This document shows, piece by piece, positions 2,883 to 60,285 of a stretch of DNA of 64,000 nt. Position 1 is the stretch's first letter; every line of letters begins with the position of its first letter. This DNA is from Saccharopolyspora soli (GTDB lineage Bacteria; Actinomycetota; Actinomycetes; Mycobacteriales; Pseudonocardiaceae), in the NCBI RefSeq assembly GCF_022678645.1, contig NZ_JALBWV010000016.1, positions 62,001-126,000 on the forward strand, written 5' to 3'. The translations under genes and the position numbers were made by a program. The notes below the pieces were generated by a model. That model saw only the letters and a program-made list of their open reading frames with translations, was not told where the DNA came from and did no database searches.

Positions 2883-2930
2883 GGTCGTGAGTGCGCAACC
2901 GGGCTCCAACCCGGTTAAGCACTCACGACC
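2883..2930. repeat. Family A palindromic repeat, copy 1 (convergent junction)
   Basis: A 48-bp element with perfect 12-bp outer arms GGTCGTGAGTGC (2883-2894) and GCACTCACGACC (2919-2930). A nested 7-bp stem, AACCGGG (2897-2903) with CCCGGTT (2910-2916), lies inside. It fills the junction between the convergent IclR gene and the PLP-enzyme gene, so it could act as a bidirectional terminator. Related copies are at 9397, 25887, 49483 and 60239; the inner sequence is nearly identical to the copy at 25887. Confidence 0.93.
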
Positions 2931-2941
2931 GTCACCTGCGG

Positions 2942-4102
2942 TCAGCGGTCCAGGGCTTGGGCGAAGTCGGCCCAGATGTCGTCGGGTTCTTCGATGCCGA
3001 TCGAGACGCGGATGATCCCCTCGCCGATACCGACCGCGCGCAGTTGCTCGTCGCTGAGCTGACGGTGCGAGGTGCTGGCCGGGTGCAGCACCAGGGTCTC
3101 GACACCGCCCAGCGACGGACCCAGCGACGCCAGCCGGACCGCCTGCACGAACGCCAGCCCGGCTGCCCTGCTACCCAGGTCGAAGCTCAGCACGCCGCCG
3201 TTGCCGCGCAACAGCTTTCGCGCCAAGTCGTGGTCGGGGCGCGACGGCAGGCCGGGGTAGTGCACCGCCCGCACGGCCGGGTGCGCGGCGAGCCGCTCGG
3301 CGATGAACTGCGCGTTCCCGCAGTGCTGCCGCATCCGCAGCGCGAGCGTCCGAATCCCGCGCAACGTCAACCACGCCGCGAACGGGTCCACCGCCACGCC
3401 GAACTCCACCAGTTCCGGCCAGATCTCGCGGTGCAGCTCCGCATCCGCGAACACCGCGATCCCGCCGACCACGTCGGAGTGGCCACCCAGGTATTTGGTC
3501 GTCGAGTGCACGACGATGTCCGCGCCGTGCTCGATCGGGCGGCACAGCAGCGGCGTGGCGAAGGTGTTGTCCACGACGTTGATCAGTCCGGCCTCGCGGC
3601 CCACCGCGAACAGTCCGGGCAGGTCACCAACCTGGACCATGGGGTTCGAGATCGTCTCCGCGTAGAGCATCCTGGTGTTCGGCCGCAGCGCCTGGCGCGC
3701 CTCGTCCGGCCCGGACACGTAGCTGACCTCGATTCCCCAGCGGTGCACCAGGCTTTCGAAGGCGGCGAAAGTGCCGCCGTAGAGGCTGCGCTGGGCGATC
3801 ACGTGGTCGCCGGTGCGCAGCAGGGTCATCAGCAGCGCGTTGATCGCTCCCATGCCGGACGAGGTCGCGAAGCCGACCGCGCCGCCTTCGAGTTCCGCGA
3901 CGGTGTTCTCCAGCGCCCGCGCGGTCGGGTTGCCCAGGCGGCTGTAGACCGGCTCGCCGTCCGGGCGCGTCATGCCGTCGGCGAAGACGTCGGGATCGGC
4001 GAAGGCGAATCCGGAGGTCTGGTAGATCGGCACGCTCAACGGCTGGGAGTCGGGGATTTCGGGGCTTCGGACGTGGACGCATCGCGTGCTCTCGTGGGTC
4101 AT
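2942..4102 (-). CDS. Trans-sulfuration family PLP enzyme (cystathionine/methionine gamma-lyase or gamma-synthase type)
   Basis: A 386-residue enzyme of the Cys/Met-metabolism PLP family. The PLP-lysine motif STTKYLGGHSD is present, as are YSRLGNPT and the C-terminal LGGVETLVLHPAS segment. The position occupied by the catalytic cysteine of methionine gamma-lyase (LYGCTF) is Gly here (LYGGTF), as in cystathionine gamma-synthases and lyases, so those activities are more likely; the exact substrate cannot be assigned. I chose ATG 4102, where family homology begins, over an upstream extension that runs into the divergent gene. It is divergent from a MocR regulator with only 63 bases between, a common arrangement of regulator and target. 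Confidence 0.88.
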   Translation of the reverse strand: MTHESTRCVHVRSPEIPDSQPLSVPIYQTSGFAFADPDVFADGMTRPDGEPVYSRLGNPTARALENTVAELEGGAVGFATSSGMGAINALLMTLLRTGDHVIAQRSLYGGTFAAFESLVHRWGIEVSYVSGPDEARQALRPNTRMLYAETISNPMVQVGDLPGLFAVGREAGLINVVDNTFATPLLCRPIEHGADIVVHSTTKYLGGHSDVVGGIAVFADAELHREIWPELVEFGVAVDPFAAWLTLRGIRTLALRMRQHCGNAQFIAERLAAHPAVRAVHYPGLPSRPDHDLARKLLRGNGGVLSFDLGSRAAGLAFVQAVRLASLGPSLGGVETLVLHPASTSHRQLSDEQLRAVGIGEGIIRVSIGIEEPDDIWADFAQALDR

Positions 4103-4140
4103 GGCACCAGGCTCGCCGCAGGTGACTGCCGGAGAAAGCG

Positions 4141-4176
4141 CCAATTCCGATAGATTGGATCCTTGATGGACCCAAT
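4141..4176. promoter_or_regulatory. Divergent promoter/operator with three CCAAT/ATTGG boxes
   Basis: CCAAT lies at 4141-4145, ATTGG at 4154-4158 and CCAAT again at 4172-4176, giving two overlapping inverted pairs around the start of the MocR gene. TAGATT (4151-4156) resembles a -10 hexamer 9 bases before ATG 4166, which suggests a leaderless MocR transcript. Binding here would cover the MocR promoter and sit upstream of the divergent PLP-enzyme gene. Operator function is inferred. Confidence 0.5.
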
Positions 4177-5599
4177 CTCGCTGGATCGCCTCGTCGGGCT
4201 GCTCGGGCGCTGGTCGGCGCAGCGCGGCTCGCTGCAAGAGCTGCTCGCCGCCCGGCTGCGGCAGTTGATCGAGGACGGCAGCCTGCCGCCGGACACCGCG
4301 CTACCGCCGGACCGCGCGCTGGCCGGTGCGCTCGCCGTCGGCCGCAACACCGTCGTGGCCGCGTACCGGATCCTGCGCGAACAAGGGCTCCTCGAACGCC
4401 GCCAGGGCAGCGGAACCCGCGTCACCACGGCAATGCTGACCGCCGCGCGGACCGCCGCCGGTTCGGCCAGCCCGCTGTTCCTGCACCTGCTGGAACCCTC
4501 GGACGCCGCGATCCAGCTGACCTGCGCGAGCCCGTGGCTGCCGCCGCCGGAACTCGCCGAACTGCAGCCGGAAGTGACCACTCGGCTCGCCGCCGGGGTC
4601 GCGGACATGGGCTACCACCCGGCGGGCGTGCCCGACCTCCGGCAGGCGCTGGCTGATCGCTACACCTGGCGCGGCGTCCCGACCCGCGCCGAGCAGATCC
4701 TCGTCACCACTGGCGCGCAACAGGCCCTGTCACTGCTGGTCCGCCTGCTGGTCGGCCCCGGCGACGAGGTGCTGTTCGCGGCCCCGACCTATCCGGGCCT
4801 GTTCGAACCGTGCCGGGAGGCCGGTGCTCGGATCCACCCGATCCGCGCCGACGACGGGCTGGACCTGGCCAGCTACCTGCGCGCGATCGCCGACCGCCCG
4901 GCGCTGGCGTACGTGATCGCCACGTTCCACAACCCGACCGGCGAAGTGCTGTCGTCGCTGCAACGCCGTCGGCTGGTCGAAACGTGCCAGCGGCACGACG
5001 TCCCGTTGATCGACGACGAGGTGCTGGCCGAACTCGACCTCGACGAGGCGGCCCCGCCGCCGATGGCCGGTGGTCCGGTAATCAACGTCGGGTCGCTGAG
5101 CAAGCTGGTCTGGGGCGGCCTGCGGGTCGGTTGGGTGCGTGCGCCCGAACCGCTGATCACCAGGCTGGCGCGGGTCAAGGCGGCGCACGATCTCGGCAGT
5201 CCGGTGCTGGATCAATGGCTCGCTGCCGCGCTGCTCCCGCGGCTGGAAGCGGTCCGCGCGCGGCGGATCGCCGAGCTCCGCGCCCAGCGCGATCGGCTGT
5301 GCGCCGAGTTGGCCGCGAACTCGCCGTGGACCTTCCAGGTGCCGCCCGGTGGCCAGACCCTCTGGGTCAGGCTGCCCTACGGCGACGCGAGCGCCTTCGC
5401 CCAGCACGCGCTGCGGTTCGGCGTCGCGGTGCTGCCCGGCCAAACCCTGGATCCCGAGCGCCGCAGCGGCGACTGCCTGCGCATCCCGTTCCTGCTACCA
5501 CCCGCCGAACTCGCGGAGGCGGTGCACCGGCTAGCGGAAGCCTGGCGCTCCTACGACGGAACCGCGGCAGTAGCGGCGGTCAACGCAATGGTGGTCTGA
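4166..5599 (+). CDS. MocR/PdxR-type regulator (GntR HTH fused to aminotransferase fold)
   Basis: A 477-residue protein. Residues about 15-85 are a GntR winged HTH (LQELLAARLRQLIEDG, then LAVGRNTVVAAYRIL); residues about 110-470 are a fold-type I aminotransferase domain. It keeps the PLP-lysine in VGSLSKLVWGGLRVGW, the HNPTGEV segment and the DDEV aspartate. MocR proteins use the PLP domain as a sensor and often control divergent genes, here probably the trans-sulfuration enzyme. I chose ATG 4166 over the adjacent TTG 4163; a TAGATT box 9 bases upstream suggests leaderless translation. Confidence 0.9.
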   Translation: MDPISLDRLVGLLGRWSAQRGSLQELLAARLRQLIEDGSLPPDTALPPDRALAGALAVGRNTVVAAYRILREQGLLERRQGSGTRVTTAMLTAARTAAGSASPLFLHLLEPSDAAIQLTCASPWLPPPELAELQPEVTTRLAAGVADMGYHPAGVPDLRQALADRYTWRGVPTRAEQILVTTGAQQALSLLVRLLVGPGDEVLFAAPTYPGLFEPCREAGARIHPIRADDGLDLASYLRAIADRPALAYVIATFHNPTGEVLSSLQRRRLVETCQRHDVPLIDDEVLAELDLDEAAPPPMAGGPVINVGSLSKLVWGGLRVGWVRAPEPLITRLARVKAAHDLGSPVLDQWLAAALLPRLEAVRARRIAELRAQRDRLCAELAANSPWTFQVPPGGQTLWVRLPYGDASAFAQHALRFGVAVLPGQTLDPERRSGDCLRIPFLLPPAELAEAVHRLAEAWRSYDGTAAVAAVNAMVV

Positions 5600-5624
5600 G
5601 AACCCAACACCGGGCACCATTTCC

Positions 5625-5646
5625 GGCGATTTCGCGCGAAATCGCC
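5625..5646. repeat. Family B palindrome, copy 1
   Basis: A perfect 22-bp palindrome, GGCGATTTCGC and its complement, 25 bases after the MocR stop and about 240 bases before cydA. It is one of eight ATTTC-CG-GAAAT palindromes in the window. In RNA it would form a short stem with almost no loop, so it is a poor classical terminator; a protein-binding or mobile-repeat role is equally possible. Confidence 0.85.
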
Positions 5647-5788
5647 AGTAGTGCTGGTCTCCCGGCCTCGGGAATCCGTTTCGGGAATGCGTGTCGGGTG
5701 GTGCGTTGGATTTTGACTCTGCGTGTTCCTGGCCACTTTCGTAGCATTTGTTTGCCCAGCTAGTTCCGGTGGTATCTCGCGCAGAGTG

Positions 5789-5808
5789 GTCGGGACCAAG
5801 GTCCTGTT
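5789..5808. promoter_or_regulatory. Candidate DevR/DosR-type box upstream of cydA
   Basis: The core GGACCAAGGTCC (5793-5804) is a perfect 12-bp palindrome inside GTCGGGACCAAGGTCCTG. It resembles the mycobacterial DosR consensus (GGGACT-WW-AGTCC) at most conserved positions. It lies about 80 bases upstream of the cydA start, and a DevR-like two-component pair is encoded downstream of the cyd operon. The 5600-5886 interval otherwise holds one family B palindrome and no gene. The assignment is by pattern only. Confidence 0.4.
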
Positions 5809-5886
5809 CCGCAGGGGACCCTCGACTGGGGGAAAGGGGGCCCTTGCCTCTGCGAAACCGGAGGTCGCGACGGCAGGGTGGGAACC

Positions 5887-7389
5887 GTGGATCTGCTCGA
5901 CATCGCCCGCTGGCAATTCGGCATCACCACCGTCTACCACTTCCTGATGGTTCCGCTGACCATCGGACTGGCGGTGCTGGTCGCCGGAATGCAGACCGCG
6001 TGGTACCGCACCGGCAAGCAGCGCTACCTGAAGATGACCAAGTTCTGGGGCAAGCTGCTGCTGATCAACTTCGCGATGGGCGTGGTCACCGGCCTCGTGC
6101 AGGAATTCCAGTTCGGCATGGCCTGGAGTTCCTATTCCCGCTTCGTCGGTGATGTCTTCGGCGCCCCGCTGGCGATGGAGGGACTGCTCGCGTTCTTCGT
6201 CGAATCGACCTTCCTCGGCCTGTGGATCTTCGGCTGGGACCGGCTGTCCAAGGGCGTGCACCTGGCCTGCGCATGGGCGTTCTCGCTGGCCACCGTGCTG
6301 TCCGCGTACTTCATCCTGGCCGCCAACTCGTGGATGCAGCACCCGGTCGGCATCGAGCTGGTCGACGGTCGGCCCCAGTTGACCTCGATCTGGGCGATGC
6401 TGGGCAACAGCACCGTGCTAGCGGCGTTCCCGCACACCGTGTTCGGCTGCTTCGCGGTCGCCGGTTCGTTCCTGGTCGGCATCGCCGCCTGGCAGATCGC
6501 CCGGCACCACCGCAAGTCCGACCCGGGCGACGAGGACCGCCGGGCCTGGCACGGCTCGATGCGGTTGGGCGCGTGGGTCGCGGTGTTCGCCTTCGCGGGT
6601 CTGGCGATCTCCGGGGACATCCAGGGCAAGCTGATGTTCCAGCAGCAGCCGATGAAGATGGCCTCCGCGGAGGCGTTGTGCCACACCGAGGCGCCCGCCA
6701 GCTTCTCGATCTTCGCCATCGGCGACGTCAGCCGCCCCGACTGCGAGAACGTCAAGAGCGTCACGGTGCCCTACATCCTGTCCTACCTCGCGCGGGGCGA
6801 CTTCAACAGCGAGGTGCGCGGGGTGCAGGCACTGCTCCCGGAGTACCAGGCCAAGTACGGCACCCACTACCCGGACGATCCGCGGCTGGGTTCGTTCGCG
6901 GGCCAGCCGATCGACTACGTGCCGCTGCTGCCGGTGACCTACTGGGGCTTCCGGTTCATGATCGGCTTCGGCGGGCTCGCCGCGCTCGGCGCCGTGGTGG
7001 TGCTGTGGCTGACCCGGAAGCGGAGATTCCCCAGCGGCCGCCTGTGGGCGCCGTTGGCGGTGCTGAGCATCGCGCTGCCGTTCCTCGGCAACATCGCCGG
7101 TTGGGTGTTCACCGAGATGGGCCGCCAGCCGTTCGTGGTCGCGCCCAACCCGGACGCGTCGGGCGTCGATGGCGTGTGGATGTTCACCGCCGCGGCGGTG
7201 TCCTCGGGGGTCGCTCCGGGCGAGCTGCTGACCTCGGTGATCACCTTGACCGCGCTGTACGGGGTGCTGGCGGTGGTGGAGATCTTCCTGATCGTGCGCT
7301 TCGTGCGCGGCGGATTCGCCGGGGTGATGCCCCCCGAGCCGCCGGAAGGCGAGCAGAAATCCGGCGAAGCGCTGTCGTTCGCCTACTGA
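5887..7389 (+). CDS. cydA: Cytochrome bd ubiquinol/menaquinol oxidase subunit I
   Basis: Membrane subunit of cytochrome bd, the high-affinity quinol oxidase that reduces oxygen to water. It has 500 residues and about nine membrane helices. Expected haem and proton residues are visible: His18 (haem b595 side), Glu98 and Glu106 in MEGLLAFFVES, His183 in FPHTVFG, and Q-loop Lys257/Glu262 in QQPMKMASAEA. The signature is TEMGRQPF rather than the usual GRQPW, a minor oddity. GTG 5887 is preferred over GTG 5878 because an AGGGTGGG ribosome site lies just before it. It heads the cydA-cydB-cydDC operon and may be controlled by a DevR-like box at 5789. Confidence 0.95.
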   Translation: MDLLDIARWQFGITTVYHFLMVPLTIGLAVLVAGMQTAWYRTGKQRYLKMTKFWGKLLLINFAMGVVTGLVQEFQFGMAWSSYSRFVGDVFGAPLAMEGLLAFFVESTFLGLWIFGWDRLSKGVHLACAWAFSLATVLSAYFILAANSWMQHPVGIELVDGRPQLTSIWAMLGNSTVLAAFPHTVFGCFAVAGSFLVGIAAWQIARHHRKSDPGDEDRRAWHGSMRLGAWVAVFAFAGLAISGDIQGKLMFQQQPMKMASAEALCHTEAPASFSIFAIGDVSRPDCENVKSVTVPYILSYLARGDFNSEVRGVQALLPEYQAKYGTHYPDDPRLGSFAGQPIDYVPLLPVTYWGFRFMIGFGGLAALGAVVVLWLTRKRRFPSGRLWAPLAVLSIALPFLGNIAGWVFTEMGRQPFVVAPNPDASGVDGVWMFTAAAVSSGVAPGELLTSVITLTALYGVLAVVEIFLIVRFVRGGFAGVMPPEPPEGEQKSGEALSFAY

Positions 7390-7404
7390 CCGAGGGGACC
7401 TGCG

Positions 7405-8415
7405 ATGGACCTGCCCACCTTCTGGTTCTGCGTGATCGCCCTGTTCTGGCTGGGCTACCTGTTCCTGGAGGGATTCGACTTCGGGGTCGGCATGCTGCTG
7501 CCGATCCTGGGCCGCGACGAGACCGAACGGCGGGTGCTGATCAACACCATCGGCCCGGTGTGGGACGGCAACGAGGTGTGGCTGATCGTCGCTGGCGGCG
7601 CCACCTTCGCCGCTTTCCCGGGCTGGTACGCGTCCCTGTTCAGCACGGCCTACCTGCCGTTCTTGCTGCTGCTGGTGGTGCTGATCGGGCGCGGTGTGGC
7701 GTTCGAGTACCGCGGCAAGGTGGACACCCGGCGGTGGCGGCGGAACTGGGACGTCGTGATCGTGCTGGCGTCGTGGATCGCCCCGCTGGTGGTGGGCCTG
7801 GTGCTGGCCGCGAACGTGTTCGGCCTGCCGTTGGACGCCAACGGGGACCGGGTCGGCGGCTGGTGGACGATCTTCAGCGTGCCCAGCGTCGTCGGTGCGC
7901 TGGCGGTGTGCGGGTTCGCCCTGCTGCACGGCGCGATCTTCCTCGCGCTCAAGACCGAGGGCGAGATCCGGGAGCGGGCCCGGCGGTTCGCGCTGCGGGC
8001 GGGGGTGCCGTTGCTGCTTCCGGTGATCGCGCTGGTGCTGATCGCGCAGTTCTCGGAGGGCTCGACGTGGACCTGGGTGCCGCTGGTGATCGCGCTGGTG
8101 GCGGCGTTGGTCGGGCTCGGTCGGCTGCTGCGGGGCCGGGAAGGCCAGGCGTTCGCGCTGCAGGGCGTGGCGTTGACCGGAGTGGCGGTGACCCTGTTCG
8201 GCGCGCTGTGGCCGAACGTGATCCCGTCCACTTTGGACCCCGCGTGGTCGTTGTCGATCGCGGACACCGCCTCCAGCCCGTACACCCTGACCGTGATGAC
8301 CTGGGTCGCCGCGATCGGCGCCCCGGCGGTGCTGGTCTACCAGGGCTGGACCTACTGGGTGTTCCGCAAGCGCATCGGCACCAAGCACATCCCGCCGGTG
8401 CACGTCCCGTCGTAG
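7405..8415 (+). CDS. cydB: Cytochrome bd oxidase subunit II
   Basis: Second membrane subunit of cytochrome bd, pairing with CydA. The 336-residue length fits the short actinobacterial form, and it has about eight hydrophobic helices. Family hallmarks seen are the N-terminal FLEGFDFGVGMLLP segment and WDGNEVWLIVAGGATFAAFP. The gene begins 15 bases after cydA with a GAGGGGA ribosome site and is followed after 45 bases, which hold a family B palindrome, by cydDC. Operon membership is clear from spacing and direction. Confidence 0.95.
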   Translation: MDLPTFWFCVIALFWLGYLFLEGFDFGVGMLLPILGRDETERRVLINTIGPVWDGNEVWLIVAGGATFAAFPGWYASLFSTAYLPFLLLLVVLIGRGVAFEYRGKVDTRRWRRNWDVVIVLASWIAPLVVGLVLAANVFGLPLDANGDRVGGWWTIFSVPSVVGALAVCGFALLHGAIFLALKTEGEIRERARRFALRAGVPLLLPVIALVLIAQFSEGSTWTWVPLVIALVAALVGLGRLLRGREGQAFALQGVALTGVAVTLFGALWPNVIPSTLDPAWSLSIADTASSPYTLTVMTWVAAIGAPAVLVYQGWTYWVFRKRIGTKHIPPVHVPS

Positions 8416-8423
8416 CCAGCCGC

Positions 8424-8441
8424 CGATTTCGCGCGAAATCG
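8424..8441. repeat. Family B palindrome, copy 2 (inside cyd operon)
   Basis: A perfect 18-bp palindrome, CGATTTCGC plus its complement, between cydB and cydDC, ending 8 bases before the cydDC ribosome site at 8450. Because it lies inside an operon, a strong terminator role is unlikely; it might tune the ratio of oxidase to transporter message. Confidence 0.85.
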
Positions 8442-8460
8442 TCCACCGCAGGAGTGCGTG

Positions 8461-11400
8461 ATGAGCCCGTTGGGAGCGTTGCCCCGGTTGTCGGGGTCGG
8501 CTCGCCGTGCGCTCGTCGGAGCTGGGCTGCTGTCGGTTGGCAACGCGGTCGCGTTGATCGTGCAGGCATGGGCGTTGGGCAGCGCGCTGGCGGCGGTGGT
8601 GGCCCGAGGCGCGGCGCCGGAGGCGATCAGCGGCTACCTCGTGGTGTTGGCTGTCGCGGTGGTCGCACGGGCCGGGCTGGGATGGGCGACCGAAGCGGTG
8701 TCCGCACGAGCGGCCGCGGGCGCCAAGGAGGAATTGCGCGGGCTGCTGCTGGATTCCGCGCTGCGGCGCGGACCGGAGTGGATCCAGGGGCGCGGCCCGG
8801 CGGAACTGACCGCGCTGGCCACCAAGGGCCTCGACGCGCTCGACGCGTACTTCACCAAGTACCTGCCCGCGTTGGTGACCGCCGCGGTCGTTCCGCCGCT
8901 GGTGGGTGCCTGGATCCTGTTCTCCGACTGGGTTTCCGCCCTGGTCATCGGGATCACCGTGCCGCTGATCCCGCTGTTCGCGTGGCTCGTCGGCAAGTAC
9001 ACCGAGCAGCGCACCTCGCGCGCCGCCGACGCGGTGCAACGACTGTCCGGGCAGCTGTTGGAGCTGATCCGCGCACTGCCGGTGTTGACGGCGTTCGGGC
9101 GGGCGCAGGCGCAGGGCGAGGTGGTCCGCCGGGTCAGCGACGCGCACCGCCGCACCACGATCGCGACGCTGCGCATCGCCTTCCTCTCCGCGCTGGTGCT
9201 GGAACTGCTCTCGTCGCTGTCGGTGGCGATGGTGGCCGTCGGCATCGGTCTGCGGTTGGTCTCCGGTGATCTGGACCTGGCCACCGGGCTGCTCGTGCTG
9301 GTGCTGGCTCCCGAGTGCTACCTACCGCTGCGCGCGGCCGGAGCGGCTCACCACGCCAGCGAGGACGGCATCGAAGCGGTCCGCCGCGTCGAAGAAGTCG
9401 TGAGTGGCAATGGTCGCTCTGGCGACCACAACCACTCACGACTGCTGCGGGACACGACGTTGCGGGTGGTGGGGCTGCGGGTTCGGCGGCGTGACGGGTT
9501 CGCGCCTGGCGGGTTGAGCTTCGTCGCGCGCCCCGGCGAGATCCTGCGGCTGGAGGGCTTCGACGGGATCGGCCCGAGCGGCAGCGGCAAGTCGACGACG
9601 ATGTCGGTGCTGCTCGGCTTCACCAGCCCGGAAAGCGGCACGATCACCTGCGGTGACGTGGACATCGCCGACCTCGACCCGGCCGACTGGCGACGCCGCA
9701 TCGCATGGGTGCCGCAGCGCCCCACCTTCACCGGCGGCACTGTCGCCGACGAGCTAGCGGTCGCCACCGCCGACCAACCCGACCTGGCGGAACATCTGGC
9801 GACGGCGCTCGACGAGGCGGCCGCCACGCACCTCCGCGACCGCCGCATCGACGAACTGTCCACAGGGGAACGTCAACGGGTCGCGGTAGCGCGCGCCCTG
9901 CTGCGGCTGCGCGGTGACGCGACGATCCTGCTGCTCGACGAGCCGACCGCCCACCTGGACACCGCGACAGCGCACCGGATCAACGCCGCCATCCGCCGCG
10001 CCGCTGACGCGGGCGCGACCGTCGTGCTTGCCAGCCACCGGCCGGAGGCCGTCGCGACGGAGCCCGAACCGGTCCTCGCGGCCGTCCCGGCCGCTGCGGC
10101 CGACCTGCCAGCGGCGCACGGTCGCATCCGCGACCTGATCACGCCGCGCACGCTCCTCGGCGTCGGCCTCGGCGCGCTCTCGCTGCTCTCCGGCCTCGCG
10201 CTGACCGCGACCTCGGCCTGGCTGATCGCTCGCGCTTCGCAACAACCGCCGATCCTCACGCTGTCCGTCGCGGTCGTCGGCGTGCGCACCTTCGCGCTGT
10301 CGCGCGCGGTGCTCCGCTACGCCGAGCGGCTCGTCACGCACGACGCCGCCTTCCGGCTCTCCGGCCGCCTCCGGCGGCGGCTGTGGGATGCCCTCGTGCG
10401 ACTCGGGCCGGTGCGCACCGCCGGGCTTCGCCGCGGCGAGGGGGTGGCCCGACTCGTCGACGATGTCGACGCCGTCCGCGACCTGGAGCCGCGCGTGATC
10501 CTCCCGCCGCTGGTCGCGGCGGTCGTCGTGCTCGCGGCCGTGGTGCTCCAGGCGCTGGTGCTCCCCGAGGCGGGCGCGGTTCTCGCAGCTGCGCTGCTCG
10601 TCGCCTGCTTCGCGAGTCCGCTCGCGGCGCTCGCGGCCGAGCGCCGCGCGACCACTGCCGTGGTCGAAGGGCGGCGCCGCGTGGCTGCTCGCGTCCTCGC
10701 GCTGCTCGACGGCTCGGCGGAGTTGCTCGCCTTCGGCGCGCACTCACTCCGCCGCGCCGAACTCGCGGCCGAGGACGCGCGGCTGGCTGCCCGTGCTCGG
10801 CACGCTGCCTTCGGTGCGGGCACTGCTACTGCTGTCAACACGCTTCTCGTTGGTATCGCCGTGCTTGGTGGCGCCTGGTTCGGGGCGTCGGCGGTGGCCG
10901 ATGGCCGTCTGGCACCGGAGCTCGCGCCGCTGCTCGGGTTGGTGCCGTTGGCAGCGGCGGAAGCCATTGCGCTGTTGCCTCCAGCGGCGCAGCAGTGGCG
11001 CTCGCTGCGCGCGGCGCAGGCGCGGTTGGCGCCGCTGTTGGCGGCCGATGCCGCTGGCGGAGCCGCGCCGATCGAGGCCCGTGGCGTTGAGCTGGTCGGG
11101 GTCGACGTGCGGTGGCCGGGAGCGCCGGAGGCGGCGTTGCGCGGCGCGAGCGTGCGAGTGCCGGTCGGGGCGCACGTTGCGGTGGTTGGTCCGTCTGGCG
11201 GTGGCAAGTCGACACTTTTGGCGCTGTTGCTGGGGTTCTTGCGCGCGGAGCGGGGCGAGGTGCGGGTGCCGCAGCGGGTCGCCTGGTGCCCGCAGGAACC
11301 GCAGCTGGTGTCGACGACGGTGCGGGAGAACCTGCGGCTCGCCGCGCCCGAGGCGAGCGACGGGCAGCTGGTCGAGGCGCTCCGGTTGGCCGGGCTGCCG

Positions 11401-11721
11401 GGGTGGGGCGAGCGGCTGGACACCGTGGTCGGTGGCGGCGGCACGGCGCTGTCTGGCGGCGAAGCGCAGCGGCTCGCGCTGGCGCGAGCGCTGCTGGTCG
11501 AGGACGCGGAGCTGGTGCTGCTCGACGAGCCGACGGCGCACCTGGACGTGCCGACCGCCGAGGACTTGCTCGACCGGCTGCGGCACACCCTGCGGGGCCG
11601 CACCACGATCCACGTGACGCACCGCTGGTCGGAGACCGAATTCGCGGACGTCGTCCTGCGCGTCGAGGGCGGCGAGATCACCGTGGTCCGCGAGCCGCAA
11701 CGCACGGGTGCGAACCTATGA
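8461..11721 (+). CDS. cydDC: Fused CydD-CydC thiol-reductant ABC exporter
   Basis: A 1086-residue fusion of the two half-transporters that export cysteine/glutathione-type reductants needed for cytochrome bd assembly. Order: CydD membrane domain (about 10-310), first nucleotide-binding domain (Walker A GPSGSGKST near 370, signature LSTGERQRVAVARAL, Walker B LLLDEPTAHLD near 490), CydC membrane domain (about 560-860), second NBD (GPSGGGKST near 910, LSGGEAQRLALARAL, LLDEPTAHLD). Two oddities are seen. A family A palindrome is read in frame as residues about 312-327, in the linker between the first membrane domain and NBD1. The strand leading into the first P-loop carries about five extra residues (RLEGFDG). 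ATG 8461 is chosen because AGGAG at 8450 is well spaced for it. Confidence 0.93.
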   Translation: MSPLGALPRLSGSARRALVGAGLLSVGNAVALIVQAWALGSALAAVVARGAAPEAISGYLVVLAVAVVARAGLGWATEAVSARAAAGAKEELRGLLLDSALRRGPEWIQGRGPAELTALATKGLDALDAYFTKYLPALVTAAVVPPLVGAWILFSDWVSALVIGITVPLIPLFAWLVGKYTEQRTSRAADAVQRLSGQLLELIRALPVLTAFGRAQAQGEVVRRVSDAHRRTTIATLRIAFLSALVLELLSSLSVAMVAVGIGLRLVSGDLDLATGLLVLVLAPECYLPLRAAGAAHHASEDGIEAVRRVEEVVSGNGRSGDHNHSRLLRDTTLRVVGLRVRRRDGFAPGGLSFVARPGEILRLEGFDGIGPSGSGKSTTMSVLLGFTSPESGTITCGDVDIADLDPADWRRRIAWVPQRPTFTGGTVADELAVATADQPDLAEHLATALDEAAATHLRDRRIDELSTGERQRVAVARALLRLRGDATILLLDEPTAHLDTATAHRINAAIRRAADAGATVVLASHRPEAVATEPEPVLAAVPAAAADLPAAHGRIRDLITPRTLLGVGLGALSLLSGLALTATSAWLIARASQQPPILTLSVAVVGVRTFALSRAVLRYAERLVTHDAAFRLSGRLRRRLWDALVRLGPVRTAGLRRGEGVARLVDDVDAVRDLEPRVILPPLVAAVVVLAAVVLQALVLPEAGAVLAAALLVACFASPLAALAAERRATTAVVEGRRRVAARVLALLDGSAELLAFGAHSLRRAELAAEDARLAARARHAAFGAGTATAVNTLLVGIAVLGGAWFGASAVADGRLAPELAPLLGLVPLAAAEAIALLPPAAQQWRSLRAAQARLAPLLAADAAGGAAPIEARGVELVGVDVRWPGAPEAALRGASVRVPVGAHVAVVGPSGGGKSTLLALLLGFLRAERGEVRVPQRVAWCPQEPQLVSTTVRENLRLAAPEASDGQLVEALRLAGLPGWGERLDTVVGGGGTALSGGEAQRLALARALLVEDAELVLLDEPTAHLDVPTAEDLLDRLRHTLRGRTTIHVTHRWSETEFADVVLRVEGGEITVVREPQRTGANL
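9397..9442. repeat. Family A palindromic repeat, copy 2, embedded in cydDC coding sequence
   Basis: Outer arms GTCGTGAGTGG (9397-9407) and CCACTCACGAC (9432-9442) are perfect over 11 bp. A nested stem TGGTCGC (9411-9417) pairs with GCGACCA (9422-9428). The element keeps the cydDC frame open, encoding a Gly/Asn/Asp/His-rich stretch that begins VVSGNGRSG. It shares the inner GGCGACCA sequence with the copy at 60239. The other four copies lie between genes, so this one is exceptional. Confidence 0.93.
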
Positions 11722-11806
11722 GCGCCCCCAGCGCAGCAGCGCCGTCGCATCCAGCTCTCGGGCCTGCCGTCGAACTCGTCTCGCGCGTCGCCGCGGGCGG
11801 CGGCGT

Positions 11807-11871
11807 TGGCAATTTTTCGCGAAATTGCCACGTTCTCCCCACGGGAAGCGCCAATTTCTCGCGAAATTGCC
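11807..11871. repeat. Composite family B element: two palindromes 42 bases apart
   Basis: TGGCAATTT...AAATTGCCA (11807-11830) and CAATTTC...GAAATTG (core 11852-11869) have centres about 42 bases apart and flank a CCCCACGGGAAG spacer. A structurally matching pair in the opposite orientation, with a related spacer, is at 16067-16128. The element lies in the 291-base interval between cydDC and the histidine kinase, in which no gene is supported. An open frame runs through it into the kinase but is probably untranslated there. Confidence 0.82.
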
Positions 11872-12012
11872 CGCGCCATCCGGGCGGAGATGCCACCCGG
11901 CGCCCGATGCGACGGTGCTGGTCGGGCGGGATCGGTGTCCGGCCGGAGTGCTGTGACCTGCGTCGTCCGAACCCGACGTCACGCTTGCGGGAGCTATAGC
12001 CTCGTGCATGTC

Positions 12013-15183: not shown

Positions 15184-15214
15184 GCAGGGGCCCGTCCACT
15201 CGGCGGGCCCCTGC
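15184..15214. terminator. Bidirectional terminator between hsp20 and macro-domain gene
   Basis: GCAGGGGCCCG (15184-15194) pairs perfectly with CGGGCCCCTGC (15204-15214) around a 9-base loop. It starts 9 bases after the hsp20 stop and lies 33 bases before the end of the convergent macro-domain gene. There is no U-tract, as is usual in high-GC actinobacteria. Confidence 0.8.
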
Positions 15215-21410: not shown

Positions 21411-22676
21411 GTGATCGACCTGAAGACGCTACGCGAAGATCCGGAAGCCGTGCGCGCTTCGCAGCGCGCGCGAGGAGAAGACGTGTCCCTGGTGGACGCG
21501 CTGCTGTCCGCCGCCGAGCGTCGCAGGTCCGCGGTGTCCCGCGCCGACAACCTGCGCGCCGAGCAGAAGCAGCTCGGCAAGCAGGTCGGCAAGGCCAAGG
21601 GCCCGGAGCGCGACACCCTGCTGGCCCAGGCCAAGGACCTCGCCGCGCAGGTCAAGGAGGCCGAGGCGGAGCAGGCGGCGGCCGAGGACGAGCTGCTGCG
21701 GTCGCACAAGGCCGTCTCCAACATCATCGAACCCGAGACCCCGCCCGGCGGCGAGGACGACTACGCGGTGCTCAAGCACGTCGGCGTGCCGCCGGAGTTC
21801 GACTTCGAGATCTCCGACCACGTGGACCTGGGCACCGCGCTCGGCGCCTTCGACATGGAGCGCGGCGCGAAGGTCTCCGGCGCGCGCTTCTACTTCCTGA
21901 CCGGCATCGGCGCGCAGCTGGAGCTGGCGCTGCTGAACATGGCGGCCGCGCAGGCCACGGCCGCCGGTTTCAGCCTGGTCGTGCCGCCGGTGCTGGTCCG
22001 CCCGGAGATCATGGACGGCACCGGGTTCCTCGGCGCGCACGCCACCGAGGTGTACCGGTTGGAGGAGGACGACCTCTACCTGGTCGGCACCTCCGAGGTC
22101 CCGCTGGCCGGGTACCACTCGGGCGAGATCCTCGACTTCTCCGCCGGTCCGCTGCGCTACGCGGGCTGGTCGACGTGCTTCCGCCGAGAGGCCGGTTCCT
22201 ACGGCAAGGACACCCGCGGCATCATCCGCGTGCACCAGTTCAACAAGCTGGAGATGTTCGTCTACTGCCCGGCGGAGCAGGCCCGCGACGAGCACCAGCG
22301 GCTGCTGGCCTGGGAAGAGGAGATGCTCGCCAAGATCGAGGTGCCGTACCGGGTGATCGACACCGCGGCCGGGGATCTGGGTGCCAGCGCGGCCCGCAAG
22401 TTCGACTGCGAGGCGTGGGTGCCGAGCCAGCAGACCTACCGCGAGCTGACCTCGACCTCGAACTGCACCACGTTCCAGGCGCGTCGGTTGAACACCCGCT
22501 ACCGCGACGCGGACGGCCGCACCCAGACCGCGGCCACGCTCAACGGCACGCTGGCCACCACCCGCTGGATCGTCGCGATCCTGGAGAACCACCAGCAGCC
22601 GGACGGCTCGGTCCGCGTGCCCGAAGCCCTGCGCCCCTTCCTCGGCGGCCGCGAACTCCTCGAACCGATCAGGTAG
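21411..22676 (+). CDS. serS: Seryl-tRNA synthetase
   Basis: A cytoplasmic class II synthetase charging tRNA-Ser, 421 residues. The N-terminal antiparallel coiled coil (about 30-100, rich in Lys/Glu/Ala), motif 2 ([20 protein letters not shown]), the serine-binding TSEVPL segment and motif 3 ([16 protein letters not shown]) are all present. The start is GTG 21411. There is no strong ribosome site and a TACGCT lies 8 bases upstream, so a leaderless start is plausible. No tRNA or T-box leader is seen nearby. A 14-bp perfect stem-loop follows the stop. Confidence 0.96.
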
Positions 22677-22678
22677 GA

Positions 22679-22724: not shown

Positions 22725-22746
22725 TCGTACTCGAACGGAGCGAACG

Positions 22747-25882: not shown

Positions 25883-25886
25883 CGCT

Positions 25887-46474: not shown

Positions 46475-46579
46475 GGCTCACCTGCGGGTTCGGCCGATCG
46501 CCATGATGTGCGGGCTCGCACAACGAGGAGTTCCGGCACCGCTTCAACCCGTCGAAGGGCGCTACGCAGGCCCGCAAGA

Positions 46580-46613
46580 GGAATTTCCCGCCCCCGAGCG
46601 GGCGGGAAATTCC
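46580..46613. terminator. 14-bp perfect hairpin after the GT-C gene
   Basis: GGAATTTCCCGCCC (46580-46593) and GGGCGGGAAATTCC (46600-46613) pair perfectly around a 6-base loop. Its outer AATTTC/GAAATT resembles family B. It marks the edge between the arabinan locus and the accessory insert. Confidence 0.75.
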
Positions 46614-46644
46614 ACTTCCTCAGCTGGTCGCCGCTGGTGGGCGG

Positions 46645-47375: not shown

Positions 47376-49490
47376 GTGGGTTCGAACCACCGGGTGCACA
47401 ACGATTCGGCATCCGCAGTCGCCGGACACAGCGTGCAGGCTGGGCAGATCCACGGCGATGTGCGCTTGTACCAATCCCTGGGCGACCAGGTGGTGCCGAG
47501 GCAGCTGCCGGTCGCGGCGCGGCACTTCGTCGATCGGGCGGTCGAACAGGACGCCTTGACGATGCTGTTGAGCGGCGCGAACACCGAGGGTTTCGTGCTG
47601 ATCTCGACGCTCGACGGAGTGGCCGGAGTCGGCAAGTCGACCTTGGCGGTGTACTGGGCGCACCGCGTGCGAGACCGCTTCCCGGACGGCGAGCTGTACG
47701 TGAACCTGCGCGGCTTCGATCCCGTTGCCGAGCCGATGAAACCCACCGAAGCGCTGGCCTCTTTCCTCACGGCGCTTGGTGTTTCGGGTGAGCGGATGCC
47801 GCAGCACGTCGAAGACCGAGCGGCCATGTTCCGCAGCCTGGTGCACGACAAGCGCATGCTGATCCTGCTGGACAACGCCCTGACAGCCGACCAGGTGCGG
47901 CCGTTGTTGCCGAGCAGCCCGAGCTGCCTGGTACTGGTCACCAGCCGGAACCGGCTGCACGAGTTGGTGGTCCGGGAAGGCGCATCGCGCATCACGCTCG
48001 AAGTGCTGACCGACGACGAAGCCGAGGAACTGCTCGTCCGCTACCTCGGCGCGGACCGGGTGGCGACCGAACCAGAAGCGGTGCGAAGCCTGGTCAGCCA
48101 CTGCGCCGGACTCCCGCTAGCACTGGGCATCGCTGCGGTGCGAGCCGCGGAGAACCCGGATTTCCCACTGGACGAACTGGTTTTGGAGCTCCAGGACGAA
48201 CGAGACCGACTGGATGCCCTGGACGCGGGCGGAGTGACGGGGGTCCGCGCGGTCTTCTCCTGGTCCTACCGGTCACTGACCCCGGAAGCAGCCCGGATGT
48301 TCCGCCTCCTCGGCCTGCCGACCGGCCCGGACATCAGCCTCGCCGCCGTAGCGGACCTCGCCGGGCTCCCGCCGCGCGAAGCCCGAGCCCTGCTCGCCGA
48401 ACTGTCCCGAGCCAACCTCATCGACCAGCACAAACCAGGCCGCTACCAGTTCCACAACCTGATCCGCGCGTACGCGGCGGAATGCGCCGCGAAGGACGAG
48501 CAACCGGAAGATCGCCGAGCCGCCATCCGCCGCCTCCTGGACCACTACCTCCGCACCTGCGACACGATCGACCGGGTCTTGCTCGGCCGCTGGCGATTCG
48601 CGCCGGAGCTACCCGATTCGACGGTGTCCGGTCTCTCCTTCGAGACCGAGTCGGCCATGTTGAGCTGGTGGGAAGCCGAATACGCGAACCTCGTGGCGGC
48701 TGTGCGAAACGCGGCGAACGTCGGACTGCCCGTGCACGCCTGGCAGCTCACGTACAAGCTGATGTACCTCTTCAAACTTCGCGGCCAGACGGATGACTGG
48801 ATCGCCAGCTACGAGTTCGCGCTCGGCGTGGCACGCGGGCTGGGCGATCGGGTTGCCGAGGCGCAGCTCCGCTACTACCTGGGCATGCCCTACTTCGGGC
48901 TCAAGCAGTACGAGATCGCGTTGCACTACCAGGAAAGCGCGCTGGAGCTGTTCGAAGCCGCTGGTGACCGCTACTCGACCGGCCTGGCACTGACGGTGCT
49001 CGCCGAGATCTACATCGAGCTGGGAAAACTCGACGACGCCCAGCAATGCTTGCTCCGCGGCCTGGCGGTGCAACGCGAAGAGGCCAATCGATATGGCCAG
49101 GGCTACGCGAACCACATTCTCGGCATCCTGCACATCCGCCGTGGTGAGCTGGAGAAAGCCCTTGCGCACCTGTCGACGGCTTTGGTGCTGTTCCGGGAGG
49201 ACGGCTGGAAGTTCGACGAGGCATTCGTCCTGCACCAGCTGGCAGGCGTCCACCTCCGAACGGATCATTCGACCGAAGCGCTGAACCTGTACCGGCGCGC
49301 CGTCGAACTGCGGCGCGAGATCGGCCATCGCCCAGGGGAAGCCCATAGCCTCCGCGGCCTGGGGGCCGCCCTTCACGCCGCGGGGGATCTCGACGGCTCT
49401 CGTACCTGCTGGCAGCAGGCCCTCGTCATCTTCGAGGAACTTGGTGATCCCGAAGCCGATGAGGTTCGGCAGGAGCTGGAAAGGTCGTGA
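47376..49490 (+). CDS. NB-ARC (STAND) NTPase with TPR repeats
   Basis: A 704-residue signal-transduction ATPase. The N-terminus has a short motif, AGHSVQAGQIHGDV (about 17-30), seen ahead of many actinobacterial NB-ARC proteins. The NB-ARC module follows: Walker A VAGVGKSTLAV (about 81-91), Walker B RMLILLDNA, sensor VTSRNR and CAGLPLALGI. A winged-helix/linker region (to about 430) precedes five or six TPRs (about 440-690). It lacks a SARP or other N-terminal effector domain. Such proteins act as regulators or in defence; the target is unknown. GTG 47376 is chosen for homology. A family A repeat supplies its stop codon. Confidence 0.88.
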   Translation: MGSNHRVHNDSASAVAGHSVQAGQIHGDVRLYQSLGDQVVPRQLPVAARHFVDRAVEQDALTMLLSGANTEGFVLISTLDGVAGVGKSTLAVYWAHRVRDRFPDGELYVNLRGFDPVAEPMKPTEALASFLTALGVSGERMPQHVEDRAAMFRSLVHDKRMLILLDNALTADQVRPLLPSSPSCLVLVTSRNRLHELVVREGASRITLEVLTDDEAEELLVRYLGADRVATEPEAVRSLVSHCAGLPLALGIAAVRAAENPDFPLDELVLELQDERDRLDALDAGGVTGVRAVFSWSYRSLTPEAARMFRLLGLPTGPDISLAAVADLAGLPPREARALLAELSRANLIDQHKPGRYQFHNLIRAYAAECAAKDEQPEDRRAAIRRLLDHYLRTCDTIDRVLLGRWRFAPELPDSTVSGLSFETESAMLSWWEAEYANLVAAVRNAANVGLPVHAWQLTYKLMYLFKLRGQTDDWIASYEFALGVARGLGDRVAEAQLRYYLGMPYFGLKQYEIALHYQESALELFEAAGDRYSTGLALTVLAEIYIELGKLDDAQQCLLRGLAVQREEANRYGQGYANHILGILHIRRGELEKALAHLSTALVLFREDGWKFDEAFVLHQLAGVHLRTDHSTEALNLYRRAVELRREIGHRPGEAHSLRGLGAALHAAGDLDGSRTCWQQALVIFEELGDPEADEVRQELERS

Positions 49491-49530
49491 GTGCGAAAGC
49501 CGGTTCCAGCCGTTTTTCGCACTCACGACC
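49483..49530. repeat. Family A palindromic repeat, copy 4, overlapping a stop codon
   Basis: GGTCGTGAGTGCGAAA (49483-49498) and TTTCGCACTCACGACC (49515-49530) are perfect 16-bp arms, the longest of the family. The TGA stop of the NB-ARC gene (49488-49490) lies inside the left arm. The right arm ends 2 bases from the stop of the convergent DUF397 gene. Confidence 0.93.
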
Positions 49531-49532
49531 CA

Positions 49533-49727
49533 CTAGCTGCGCTTTAGCCCGGTGACGAACGTGTGCCACCGGTCGGCGGCGAAGGTCAGGGTGCCGCCGC
49601 CGCGGTCTTTGCTGTCGCGGACGCCGATGACCTGCCGGGTCAGCGCGACCTCGACGCAGTTCCCGCCGTAGCCGTTGCTACGGCTGGATTTGCGCCAATC
49701 GGTGGTGGATAAGTCGTAGTCCTGCAT
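49533..49727 (-). CDS. DUF397 small protein
   Basis: A 64-residue protein with the full DUF397 pattern: the WRKSSRSNGYGGNCVEVAL start, IGVRDSKDRGGGTLTF and a terminal W-x-x-F helix. DUF397 proteins form partner or antitoxin-like pairs with DUF5753 XRE regulators in actinobacteria; BldB-like developmental roles are known for some. It lies 16 bases downstream of the XRE gene in the same direction, which fits that pairing. Confidence 0.92.
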   Translation of the reverse strand: MQDYDLSTTDWRKSSRSNGYGGNCVEVALTRQVIGVRDSKDRGGGTLTFAADRWHTFVTGLKRS

Positions 49728-58263: not shown

Positions 58264-59624
58264 AGGCTCAGCCTCCGGGCCAGGTCGGAGCGGAAGATGC
58301 CTTCCGGGTCGACCGTGGCGCGGATCTTGCGCCACTCGTCGATCCGCGGGTACATCTGCTCGATCATCTCGGGCGACGTGCGGGACTCCTTGGCCAGGTA
58401 CAACCGGCCGCCCGCGCCCAGCACCATCTCGTCGAGCTCCTGGCACAACCGGTCCAGGCCCGGCGTGATCGGGATGTCGACGGTCAGCGTCCAGCCCTTG
58501 CGCGGGAAGGACATCGGCGCCTGGTTGCCCTGCCCGAAGGTCTTGAGCACGTTCAGGAACGACACGTGGCCCGACGAGCTGATCTTGTCGATCGAGCGGC
58601 GGAACATCGTCTCCTGCCCGAACGGCACCATGAACTGGTACTGCAGGAAGCCGTTGGGGCCGTAGACCCGGTTCCACTCGCCGACCAGGTCCAGCGGGTG
58701 GAAGAACTGGGTGATGTTCTGCACCATGCCGAACTTCGTCGGCGCCTTGCGGTACCAGACCTCGTTGAACGCGGTGATGGTGAACTTGTTCACCAGACCG
58801 TTGGGGAAGATCGGCGGGGCGGTCATCAGCTGCGGCGCGTTGAACTTCAGCGGGTCCTTGCGCAGCTTCTTCGGCAGGTCCTCGACCTTGGCCGAGTTGC
58901 CGCGGGTCAGCAGCGCGCGGCCCATCTTCTCGCCGCGGGCCAGCGAGTCGAACCAGGCGACCGAGTAGACGTAGTTGTCGTCCGAGCCGTCGGTGAAGTG
59001 CTCGATCAGCTCGTCGAGGTTCTTGGTCTGGACGTTGTCGACCAGGAAGTACGCGGTTTCGACGCGCTTGAGCTGGACTGTCGCGCCCAGGATGATGCCG
59101 GTCAGGCCCATCCCGCCGACGGTCGCCCAGAACAATTCGGCGTGCTCGCCGTCCGGGGTCAGGGTGCGGACCTCGCCGTCGGCGGTGAGCAGGTCGAGGG
59201 ACCGCACGTGGCTGCCGAACGAGCCCTGCGAATGGTGGTTCTTGCCGTGGATGTCCGAACCGATCGCGCCACCGATGGTGACCTGCCTGGTGCCCGGCAG
59301 CACCGGGATCCACAGCCCGTACGGGAGCAGTCGGCGCATCAGCGTGTCCAGCGACACGCCCGCGTCCACGACCACCGTCGCGTTGTCCACGTCGACTTGG
59401 TGCACCCGGTCGAGGGCGGTCATGTCGATGACGGTGCCGCCCGCGTTCTGCGACGGGTCGCCGTAGCTGCGACCGAGGCCGCGCGCGATGACGCCCCGAC
59501 CACCGGCCTCGCGGACCGCCTTGGCGATCGCCTCGACGTCCGGGGTGCTGACGACATGCGCCCTGGTCGGGGCGGTGCGCCCCCAGCCGGTCAGCGTCTG
59601 AAGCTCGTCCTTTACCGATCCCAC
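58260..59624 (-). CDS. DprE1 paralogue with Thr at the benzothiazinone cysteine
   Basis: A second 454-residue DprE1-like FAD oxidase in tandem with dprE1. It keeps [33 protein letters not shown] and the active Lys in [10 protein letters not shown], but the position of Cys381/Cys387 is Thr381 ([10 protein letters not shown]). Its loop and C-terminal sequences diverge more from mycobacterial DprE1. It may be a functional backup, act on a different polyprenyl sugar, or be a non-catalytic partner. The GTG start at 59624 is preceded at 7 bases by TAGACT, suggesting a leaderless transcript. It is the first gene of the leftward operon. Confidence 0.9.
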
Positions 59625-59794
59625 CCAGCGGAGTCTATCCGCGATGTGGACACCGATTCGGCCGGGTGCACCCGGTCCCCGGATGGGTGCGATGGGTCGC
59701 CGCTACACTCGCTGGGGACGTGTGTGTGGAAGTGGTTCCCCGCGTCTTCGGCGTCTAGCCGGGTGCCCCTGTCGTCGGACCCAGAGGTGAACCA

Positions 59795-60232
59795 GTGGCC
59801 GTGGCCGAACCCGCAGCCCAGACCGAACCGAAGCGCCTAGGCGTGGTCAACCAACTGTTCCGTTTCGTAGCGATCGGTGGCTTCTGCGCCATCATCGATG
59901 CCGGGGTCTACGCGATCCTGCTCTCGCTGGGGTTGCCGAACTGGACCTCCAAAGCAGTGTCGTTCATCCTCGGCACCACGGCTTCCTATCTGATCAACCG
60001 GAAGTTCACGTTCAGCGGTGCGAGCACGGGCAATGCCAAGGCGAAGGCCATCGGGTTCGCCATCGTCTACACCGCGACGTTCTTCGTCAACGTGGGCACC
60101 AACCAGCTGCTCTACCTGACGCTGCCGGACTTCAACGACCAGCTTCGCTACGGCGTGTGCTGGGTCGTCGCGCAGGGCCTCGGCACCTTGATCAACTTCG
60201 TGATGCTCAAGTGGGTCGTCTTCCGCGAGTGA
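59795..60232 (+). CDS. GtrA-family membrane protein (Rv3789-like position)
   Basis: A 145-residue protein with four membrane helices (FRFVAIGGFCAIIDAGVYAI; SFILGTTASYLINRKFTF; IVYTATFFVNVGTNQLLYL; WVVAQGLGTLINFVMLKWVV). It stands next to dprE1, as Rv3789 does, but is divergent. Rv3789 has been proposed to help flip decaprenylphosphoryl-arabinose or to anchor AftA; the same role is possible here. GTG 59795 has a GAGGTGA site. It differs in sequence from the GtrA at 36744, so two GtrA proteins may serve two lipid-linked sugars. Confidence 0.85.
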   Translation: MAVAEPAAQTEPKRLGVVNQLFRFVAIGGFCAIIDAGVYAILLSLGLPNWTSKAVSFILGTTASYLINRKFTFSGASTGNAKAKAIGFAIVYTATFFVNVGTNQLLYLTLPDFNDQLRYGVCWVVAQGLGTLINFVMLKWVVFRE

Positions 60233-60238
60233 CCCCGA

Positions 60239-60285
60239 GGTCGTGAGTGGTAACGGCCGTTATGGCGACCATCGCCACTCACGAC
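60239..60285. repeat. Family A palindromic repeat, copy 5 (convergent junction)
   Basis: Arms GTCGTGAGTGG (60240-60250) and CCACTCACGAC (60275-60285) are perfect. The centre contains TAACGGCCGTTA (60251-60262), itself a palindrome, and the GGCGACCA string shared with copy 2 in cydDC. It starts 6 bases after the gtrA stop; the next gene is convergent. Confidence 0.92.

Follow-up and report, generated by a model that had tools for sequence, protein, structure and literature searches.

The question raised by this locus is why one palindromic repeat should occur five times in the window (the whole 64,000-nucleotide stretch of DNA that was analysed), mostly where two genes converge. All five predicted palindromes are present as shared 46-mers, at 2884-2929, 9397-9442, 25885-25930, 49484-49529 and 60240-60285, against one in total across 100 first-order Markov surrogates, and the window has no Rfam match at the gathering score. 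The repeat has a fixed length of 46 bp, with constant outer arms TCGTGAGTG/CACTCACGA at a fixed spacing of 26 nt. The original prediction held these arms to be perfect, which is not true of copy 3, whose outermost left base is C, not G (CTCGTGAGTG). The two inner subtypes it described were borne out: copies 1 and 3 share CGnAACCGGGC, and copies 2 and 5 share GnnATGGTCGC in part. Copy 4 has an inner stem of its own. These are probably REP-like palindromes of the Pseudonocardiaceae that are kept mainly as a two-way 3'-end hairpin following stop codons.

By the gene calls, four of the five copies lie in convergent junctions, as had been claimed. The calls come from a purpose-written caller, not from annotation; stops are exact if the gene is real, and starts are approximate. 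Copy 1 lies between an IclR-type regulator (2188-2880, + strand), with its stop 3 bp before the copy, and a Cys/Met PLP enzyme (2942-4033, - strand), with its stop 12 bp away. Copy 3 separates a HAD hydrolase (25070-25882, +) from an amidase_2 protein (25937-26971, -), and copy 5 a GtrA-like protein (59795-60232, +) from a conserved protein with no Pfam match (60313-60555, -). Support for this last, weakly predicted gene comes from 33 homologues; of those with a name, most are from Saccharopolyspora. The further claim that the junction copies start within 6 bases of a stop codon needs correcting for copy 4, which overlaps the stop of its left neighbour: its left arm provides the TGA (49488-49490) of a gene for an NB-ARC/TPR protein (47433-49490, +). 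The gene on its right (49533-49727, -), also weakly predicted, is backed by a DUF397 match and has its stop 3 bp from the copy. No strand is assigned to these four copies. Copy 2, on the + strand, is not at a gene end at all. It lies in frame within a 1053-aa ORF for a CydDC-like ABC exporter (8560-11721), where it separates the first membrane domain from the first ATPase domain, with ABC-exporter domains on both sides.

The five copies belong to a large dispersed family. The own Saccharopolyspora genome (9.35 Mb) has 156 exact matches to the pattern and two to a reversed-pattern control, and at least one match is found in 222 of 390 Pseudonocardiaceae genomes, the highest count being 497. The idea of a dispersed element is thus strongly supported, and the genome-wide search that had been proposed for it shows many copies; those whose contexts were analysed are in non-random places, with an excess after stops and in convergent gaps. 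Genomes sampled outside the Pseudonocardiaceae are nearly empty of matches. The outer arms and exact spacing are identical in hundreds of copies across several genera (the searches required these arms). Gaps hold 48 of 55 own copies, making the repeat a high-copy, short, extragenic palindrome like the REPs. Called genes hold three of 53 own copies and two of 131 at the named loci, in a count limited to copies with at least 6 of 11 inner pairs; copies lying at the edge of a locus (4 own, 10 named) are treated separately. Many genomes of Saccharopolyspora and other Pseudonocardiaceae have no matches, so the repeat is dispensable, a point against the preferred explanation. The original prediction knew of no named family, and no paper naming the motif was found among those listed from the open-access literature, judged largely by title and with most subscription journals outside its scope. 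The repeat would thus be a common feature of gene ends in a family that is a major source of antibiotics, and one of which we could not find a description in that literature.

The placement of the copies follows gene ends. Under a null of uniform placement in emptied gaps (2000 simulations, no inner-pairing filter), every observed value is above all 2000 simulated ones. In the own genome, where contexts were taken from the places that come first by contig number (about 50 of 156 copies, not a random draw), 31 of 48 copies lie within 15 bp of a stop (null 5.6+-2.3) and 21 of 48 in convergent gaps (null 8.3+-2.6). The corresponding figures are 14/21 (1.8+-1.3) and 12/21 (4.3+-1.9) in a continuous 400 kb of genome G155, 21/33 (5.0+-2.1) and 14/33 (4.8+-2.0) in a continuous 400 kb of genome G164, and 64/123 (17.2+-3.9) and 70/123 (20.2+-4.1) at the named loci, which are taken from among the matches listed and were each selected for holding a copy. 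The called stop codon is the arm's own TGA in 10 of 48 own copies. The preference for convergent ends is supported in all four sets, yet roughly 40-50% of the copies in gaps have neighbours in tandem (own 25/48, G155 8/21, G164 16/33, named loci 47/123 by subtraction). Divergent gaps hold few (2, 1, 3 and 6, respectively). Genome G353, for which there are context counts outside the placement null, has seven copies, three convergent and four tandem. In tandem gaps, too, many copies are no more than 15 bp from the stop of the upstream gene (own 13/23, G155 5/8, named loci 22/46). Two-way termination is not obviously useful for tandem, divergent or in-gene copies, a point against the preferred explanation.

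The inner stem varies in sequence between genomes, and its pairing is kept in 93% of cells. Among 41 distinct copies hand-picked by the analyst from several genera, 180 cells carry double changes, compared with 68.3+-5.8 after shuffling. The number of pairs with double changes is a weak measure of covariation, at 12 versus 10.8+-0.5, with 20 of 500 shuffles reaching 12. The likeness of the inner arms within a copy is 0.788 versus 0.774+-0.024 for random arms in G155, and 0.826 versus 0.799+-0.014 in G164. In these two genomes, which have the highest copy numbers of those sampled, the arms are barely above random, so pairing of the full stem is not tightly kept there, which counts against the preferred explanation. 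The mean predicted RNA energy of the 46-mer is -31.8 to -34.3 kcal/mol. The palindrome is near-symmetric, and its centre has no clear orientation preference in tandem contexts, as expected for a two-way device.

Transcribed from either side, the repeat would form a very stable hairpin directly after the stop codon, and this hairpin would fix the 3' ends of both converging messages. It may halt RNA polymerase without a U-tract, block 3'-exonucleases after Rho-dependent termination, or do both. A stable hairpin soon after the coding sequence is a feature of intrinsic terminators, and action as a terminator is plausible from the sequence. The U-tract is absent: six or more T in 10 nt occur in 0/110 own, 0/42 G155 and 3/270 named-locus flanks (3/422 overall), and the mean of 1.5-1.6 T in 10 nt equals background. 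A terminator scan of window positions 2000-12000 reported neither of the two copies there. The mapped terminators of Streptomyces are similar in being long, very stable, U-poor hairpins soon after the coding sequence, as described in part of PMC12207403. The 3-4 U reported for them exceed the T content of the repeat's flanks, and that part of the source does not portray them as members of a scattered family whose arms are constant. Other hairpins also gather at convergent ends. In a survey limited to gaps of up to about 400 bp, a stem score of at least 12 is reached in 56 of 173 element-free convergent gaps (own 12/33, G155 13/45, G164 14/40, G353 17/55), compared with 0/173 coding controls, 7/188 divergent gaps and 53/725 tandem gaps. 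The best reading is that the repeat would set transcript ends, as a terminator, a transcript stabiliser, or both.

Copies turn over rapidly between related species. At the copy 3 junction the repeat is absent from 15 related genomes, at least five of which bear unrelated palindromes after the same stop; several relatives are without a clear hairpin by eye. Of the 19 G155 copies in the span aligned with G164, 11 lack a G164 counterpart within 700 bp of the position to which they map, a position that is extrapolated where it falls inside a large unaligned gap. The original description of the repeat as co-opted, implying a mobile origin, fits this turnover, but the moving agent was not found and there is no RAYT in 35 family genomes. 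The set of hundreds of placed variants, with presence and absence between related species, suits tests of U-tract-free transcript ending in GC-rich actinobacteria and of palindrome spread without RAYT, and the repeat could mark gene 3' ends in sequence annotation.

The turnover, with the missing G164 counterparts and the in-frame copies within genes, also accords with a selfish palindromic transposon lacking any host function, whose copies survive after stops and in convergent gaps by breaking neither promoter nor protein; we regard this as a doubtful but serious alternative. The TGA of the arm would make insertion at a 3' end tolerable, and the stop-proximal excess could be imitated by purifying selection that acts more strongly within gaps. 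However, that excess is greater than uniform gap placement gives and extends to tandem gaps, and unrelated hairpins likewise concentrate in convergent gaps. Nor is there a transposase or a demonstrated target duplication: one fairly clean presence/absence pair (G164 versus G155) permits at most an ambiguous 2 bp, and at the other such sites inspected the difference exceeds the element itself. MITEs are likewise short, non-coding and dispersed with inverted repeats. For the repeat, no autonomous partner with the same ends was recognised among the single arms in the DNA stretches examined (parts of genomes). In Amycolatopsis, most single arms look, on inspection, like one half of a palindrome that has been interrupted. 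A long parent element ending in such halves was considered and rejected; the interrupting insert has its own ends, TTGAGGGG...CCCCTCAA, with TA repeated on both sides (by eye), and at one of these sites the palindrome is intact in the G164 relative, so the interruption is read as an insertion that entered the centre of the palindrome later.

REP/REPIN-RAYT systems also consist of extragenic palindromes that are dispersed in high copy number close to the ends of genes and have genome-specific variants, and roles in termination and mRNA stability have been proposed for REPs, as partly described in PMC3733652. The repeat differs in its 46-bp near-symmetric form, its constant outer arms and its lack of a GTAG tag: only 3/55 own, 2/21 G155, 1/33 G164 and 0/135 named-locus copies have GTAG no more than 8 nt from an end. 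The Y1 (RAYT-type) transposase PF01797 has no match in 35 family genomes, of which 17 carry 68-497 copies and 18 carry 0-2, and the single PF01797 match of the own genome lies in a 3.35-kb locus (L016) without a repeat copy. The tag and transposase tests rule out identity with REP/RAYT. CGTC-tagged palindromes and Rickettsia palindromic elements are alike in having no dedicated transposase and, for some REPs, in lying inside genes (PMC3733652, in part), and CGTC is not constant at the ends here (own 9/55, G155 1/21, G164 1/33, named loci 16/135). With no T-tract, no GTAG or CGTC tag and no Y1 transposase in the 35 family genomes, the repeat is not a described REP system; the main text of PMC3733652 does not mention Actinobacteria, Amycolatopsis, Saccharopolyspora or Streptomyces.

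A tentative extension is a REP system independent of RAYT. A putative trans-acting protein specific to the Pseudonocardiaceae would recognise the 9-10-bp outer arms at their fixed spacing and copy or convert palindromes within a genome, with modular exchange of inner arms. The host would use the post-stop hairpins, even as a source of stop codons, as a standard two-way end-of-gene part. The constancy of the arms is most likely due to a trans-acting protein that reads them; no candidate was found. A terminator role leaves the constancy of the outer arms across genera unexplained, which counts against the preferred explanation.

The constant arms and spacing across genera (from searches that required the arms) might instead mark a binding site, read as duplex DNA by a chromosome-organising or nucleoid protein. 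This is improbable, since the inner 11 bp change in sequence yet keep their complementarity, which duplex binding does not need, while placement tracks gene ends and many family genomes have no copies. A DNA-uptake signal, often arranged as a terminator-forming inverted pair as in Neisseria, is more improbable by far. Uptake signals are also widespread as single copies, coding DNA included, whereas unpaired nine-base arms of the repeat are rare, at 1/104 in own stretches (mostly picked for containing a copy, which favours paired arms) and 0/16 in G353 stretches (not so picked), with 9/48 in G155 and 17/282 at the named loci. Their scarcity disfavours this reading. Neisserial uptake sequences do resemble the repeat in having a short constant arm in terminator-like inverted pairs after genes (described in part of PMC2397512), but the repeat differs in its fixed 26-nt spacing, its covarying inner stem and arms that are almost never single in own stretches. 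Independent ordinary terminators, alike by chance or convergent evolution, can be dismissed: convergent ends do have hairpins of other kinds, but the match counts against the control, and the same arms and spacing in so many copies and genera, refute them.

The sequences around the copies were also compared. Palindromes extended past the element at particular loci, as a fold-back origin would give, were rejected, the paired fractions outside the element being near shuffled-partner values. Amycolatopsis sp. WAC 01376 has identical asymmetric copies at L039, L115 and L129, but these give no clean evidence of dispersal, because the sequences flanking them are alike too. Among 51 own copies, 37 share no flanking repeat and 14 share some.

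The five copies in the window are part of something much larger. The original prediction was of a five-copy palindromic repeat that is dispersed in the genome, and both points are borne out. The motif search recovers 46-bp copies at 2884-2929, 9397-9442, 25885-25930, 49484-49529 and 60240-60285 (the window being contig C77, 62001-126000), and in the 9.35-Mb genome the pattern CGTGAGTG-N5..35-CACTCACG has 156 matches, compared to two for the reversed pattern used as a control for chance. With a spacing of exactly 26 bases between the arms, there are 145 matches and none for the control.

The element is also found in relatives. Saccharopolyspora and Amycolatopsis both belong to the Pseudonocardiaceae, and at least one match is present in 222 of 390 genomes of this family, with a maximum of 497; many of these genomes hold a single match or two, possibly by chance. 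Reversed-pattern counts are also high in two genomes, G323 (75) and G386 (32), where a face-value reading is unsafe, and their excess suggests that another, related palindrome family is present there. The carriers named among the matches listed are Amycolatopsis, Saccharopolyspora, Lentzea, Haloechinothrix, and Qaidamihabitans. Copy number is sharply variable within a genus, with about 156-157 in S. soli versus 0 to 93 in 21 other Saccharopolyspora. A 42-bp form is found in one of 396 genomes sampled from the phylum, S. soli itself, and in 11 of 200 genomes sampled from the order, nine of them family members (S. soli included) and two outside the family, G529 with 16 copies and G507 with one. 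The G529 copies, in another family of the same order, have their own inner arms and were possibly acquired by transfer.

The two halves of the palindrome pair, and the inner arms are specific to genus and genome. Among 41 distinct copies, hand-chosen from several genera, pairing is kept in 93.0% of 861 cells. The constant arms contribute nine pairs, invariant because the search patterns demanded them; each of the 12 remaining pairs has some double change, a weak excess over the 10.8±0.5 in shuffled sets (20 of 500 shuffles reach 12). Changes on both sides occur in 180 cells versus 68.3±5.8 in shuffles, and pairing falls to 25-44% when the partner is slid along. G-U pairs make up 15 of the 861 cells, and the pair adjoining the centre (20-27) is G-C in 39 of the 41 copies. 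Over both strands, the five copies in the window have predicted energies of -25.5 to -40.0 kcal/mol. The two arms of one copy agree at 0.698 of positions in S. soli (shuffled arms, 0.495±0.031) and at 0.947 in A. orientalis (0.663±0.052). In G155 and G164, the highest-copy genomes sampled, agreement is no or little better than in shuffled arms, so the mid-stem is not kept there. In G267 (genus group g31), CGTGAGTG...CACTCACG has 259 matches versus one for TCGTGAGTG...CACTCACGA, so the next outward pair differs genome-wide.

The predicted placement at convergent gene ends holds beyond the window. Genes were called with a codon-usage caller written by the authors, and the null was uniform placement in gaps after element removal (2000 simulations). 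The number of copies in convergent gaps and the number close to a stop codon are both above all 2000 simulations in S. soli, G155, G164, and the named loci, which were chosen for holding a copy (matches listed). The 53 S. soli copies classified, taken from those listed first by contig number, comprise 21 in convergent gaps, 23 in tandem gaps, two in divergent gaps, three inside called genes, and four at locus edges; the upstream stop is at most 15 bp away in 13 of the 23 tandem cases. The commonest single stop distance is -7, at which the called stop codon is the TGA that lies within the arm GTCGTGAGTG. This is the case for 10 of 48 copies in S. soli, 6 of 21 in G155, 7 of 33 in G164, and 19 of 123 in the named loci among the matches listed.

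This element probably acts on transcript ends. A 46-nt hairpin beginning 0-15 nt past a stop ends 46-61 nt beyond the coding sequence, and a Streptomyces study gives medians of 66-76 nt for mapped ends (PMC12207403). General support for such a role comes from gaps of up to about 400 bp: other strong hairpins are found in 56 of 173 element-free convergent gaps, 53 of 725 tandem gaps (S. soli 7/122, G155 11/171, G164 15/208, G353 20/224), 7 of 188 divergent gaps (2/45, 3/48, 2/46, and 0/49, respectively), and 0 of 173 coding controls. Within the window, convergent gaps have strong hairpins unrelated in sequence at 22673-22730, 35426-35465, 46576-46617, and 15184-15214, and some of these may be further dispersed families. 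Termination is the best supported reading, short of proof. A barrier to exonucleases after Rho termination fits equally well. The lack of a T-tract argues against a classical intrinsic terminator.

Copies turn over between relatives. The junction of copy 3 (25885-25930), between a HAD hydrolase gene and an amidase_2 gene, is alignable on both sides in 20 of 29 relatives' loci (15 genomes), and the copy is absent from all 20. By eye, the same stop (GGTGGTGA) is followed by a different palindrome, TGACCGCAGTTTC...GAAACTGCGGTCA, in G351 and G363, in G350 and G355 by long palindromes of the form GTTTTAGCCATAA...TTATGGCTAAAAC, and by another, distinct one in G347; the remaining relatives have shorter hairpins or none clear. 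At the Amycolatopsis junction L100:6194, the aligned ends are separated by 136 bp in A. azurea, a copy included, and by just 4-6 bp in five of the 18 loci examined. Of the 19 G155 copies that lie in the span aligned to G164, eight have a G164 counterpart at most 700 bp from the mapped place, and 11 have none. At the position of one copy in G164, whose flanks are short and GC-rich, G155 has a 1-bp gap. The sole intergenic stretch compared between G348 and G363, which are about 97% identical, differs wholly, so exact insertion borders were seldom readable. G348, from the same genus group as S. soli, shares a 100% identical stretch with Saccharopolyspora elongata (L104).

Copy 2 (9397-9442) is in frame within a CydDC-like ORF, with membrane and ATPase domains on either side, and encodes VVSGNGRSGDHNHSR. 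In A. anabasis, another linker of the homologous gene carries a copy in the same reading frame, so protein linkers tolerate the element where the frame avoids its TGA. At the copy-2 linker, G352, G345, and G354 have apparent decayed versions by eye (GTGAGCGGCGATGG or similar), and in other relatives the linker is unrelated or contains another repeat (GAACGGTCCGTTC). In six of the relatives' loci (L142-L145, L150, and L156), the CydDC-like coding sequence at this position contains GAACGGnCCGTTC, a repeat unlike the element and frequently present in several copies.

As to kind, the element is a REP-like palindrome. The tags of both described REP classes are not constant in it, and membership in either class was rejected on testing. 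Y1_Tnp (PF01797) is found in none of 35 family genomes (17 high-copy, 18 with 0-2 copies), and the 3.35-kb locus around the single Y1 gene of S. soli has no copy.

The palindrome centre (TTAGAA/TTCTAA) is itself an insertion target. Some Amycolatopsis copies are interrupted, by eye, by an insertion that has TTGAGGGG ends and is accompanied by a repeated TA. Insertions with TA repeats and termini resembling TTGAGGGG...CCCCTCAA lie in palindrome centres at L074:987-1868, L076:4633-4968, and G155 C1 ~1,228,250-1,228,670; those in L074 and L076 hold another whole palindrome. Another copy is interrupted by a transposase-like gene, putatively IS66-like, with an 8-bp repeat apparent by eye.
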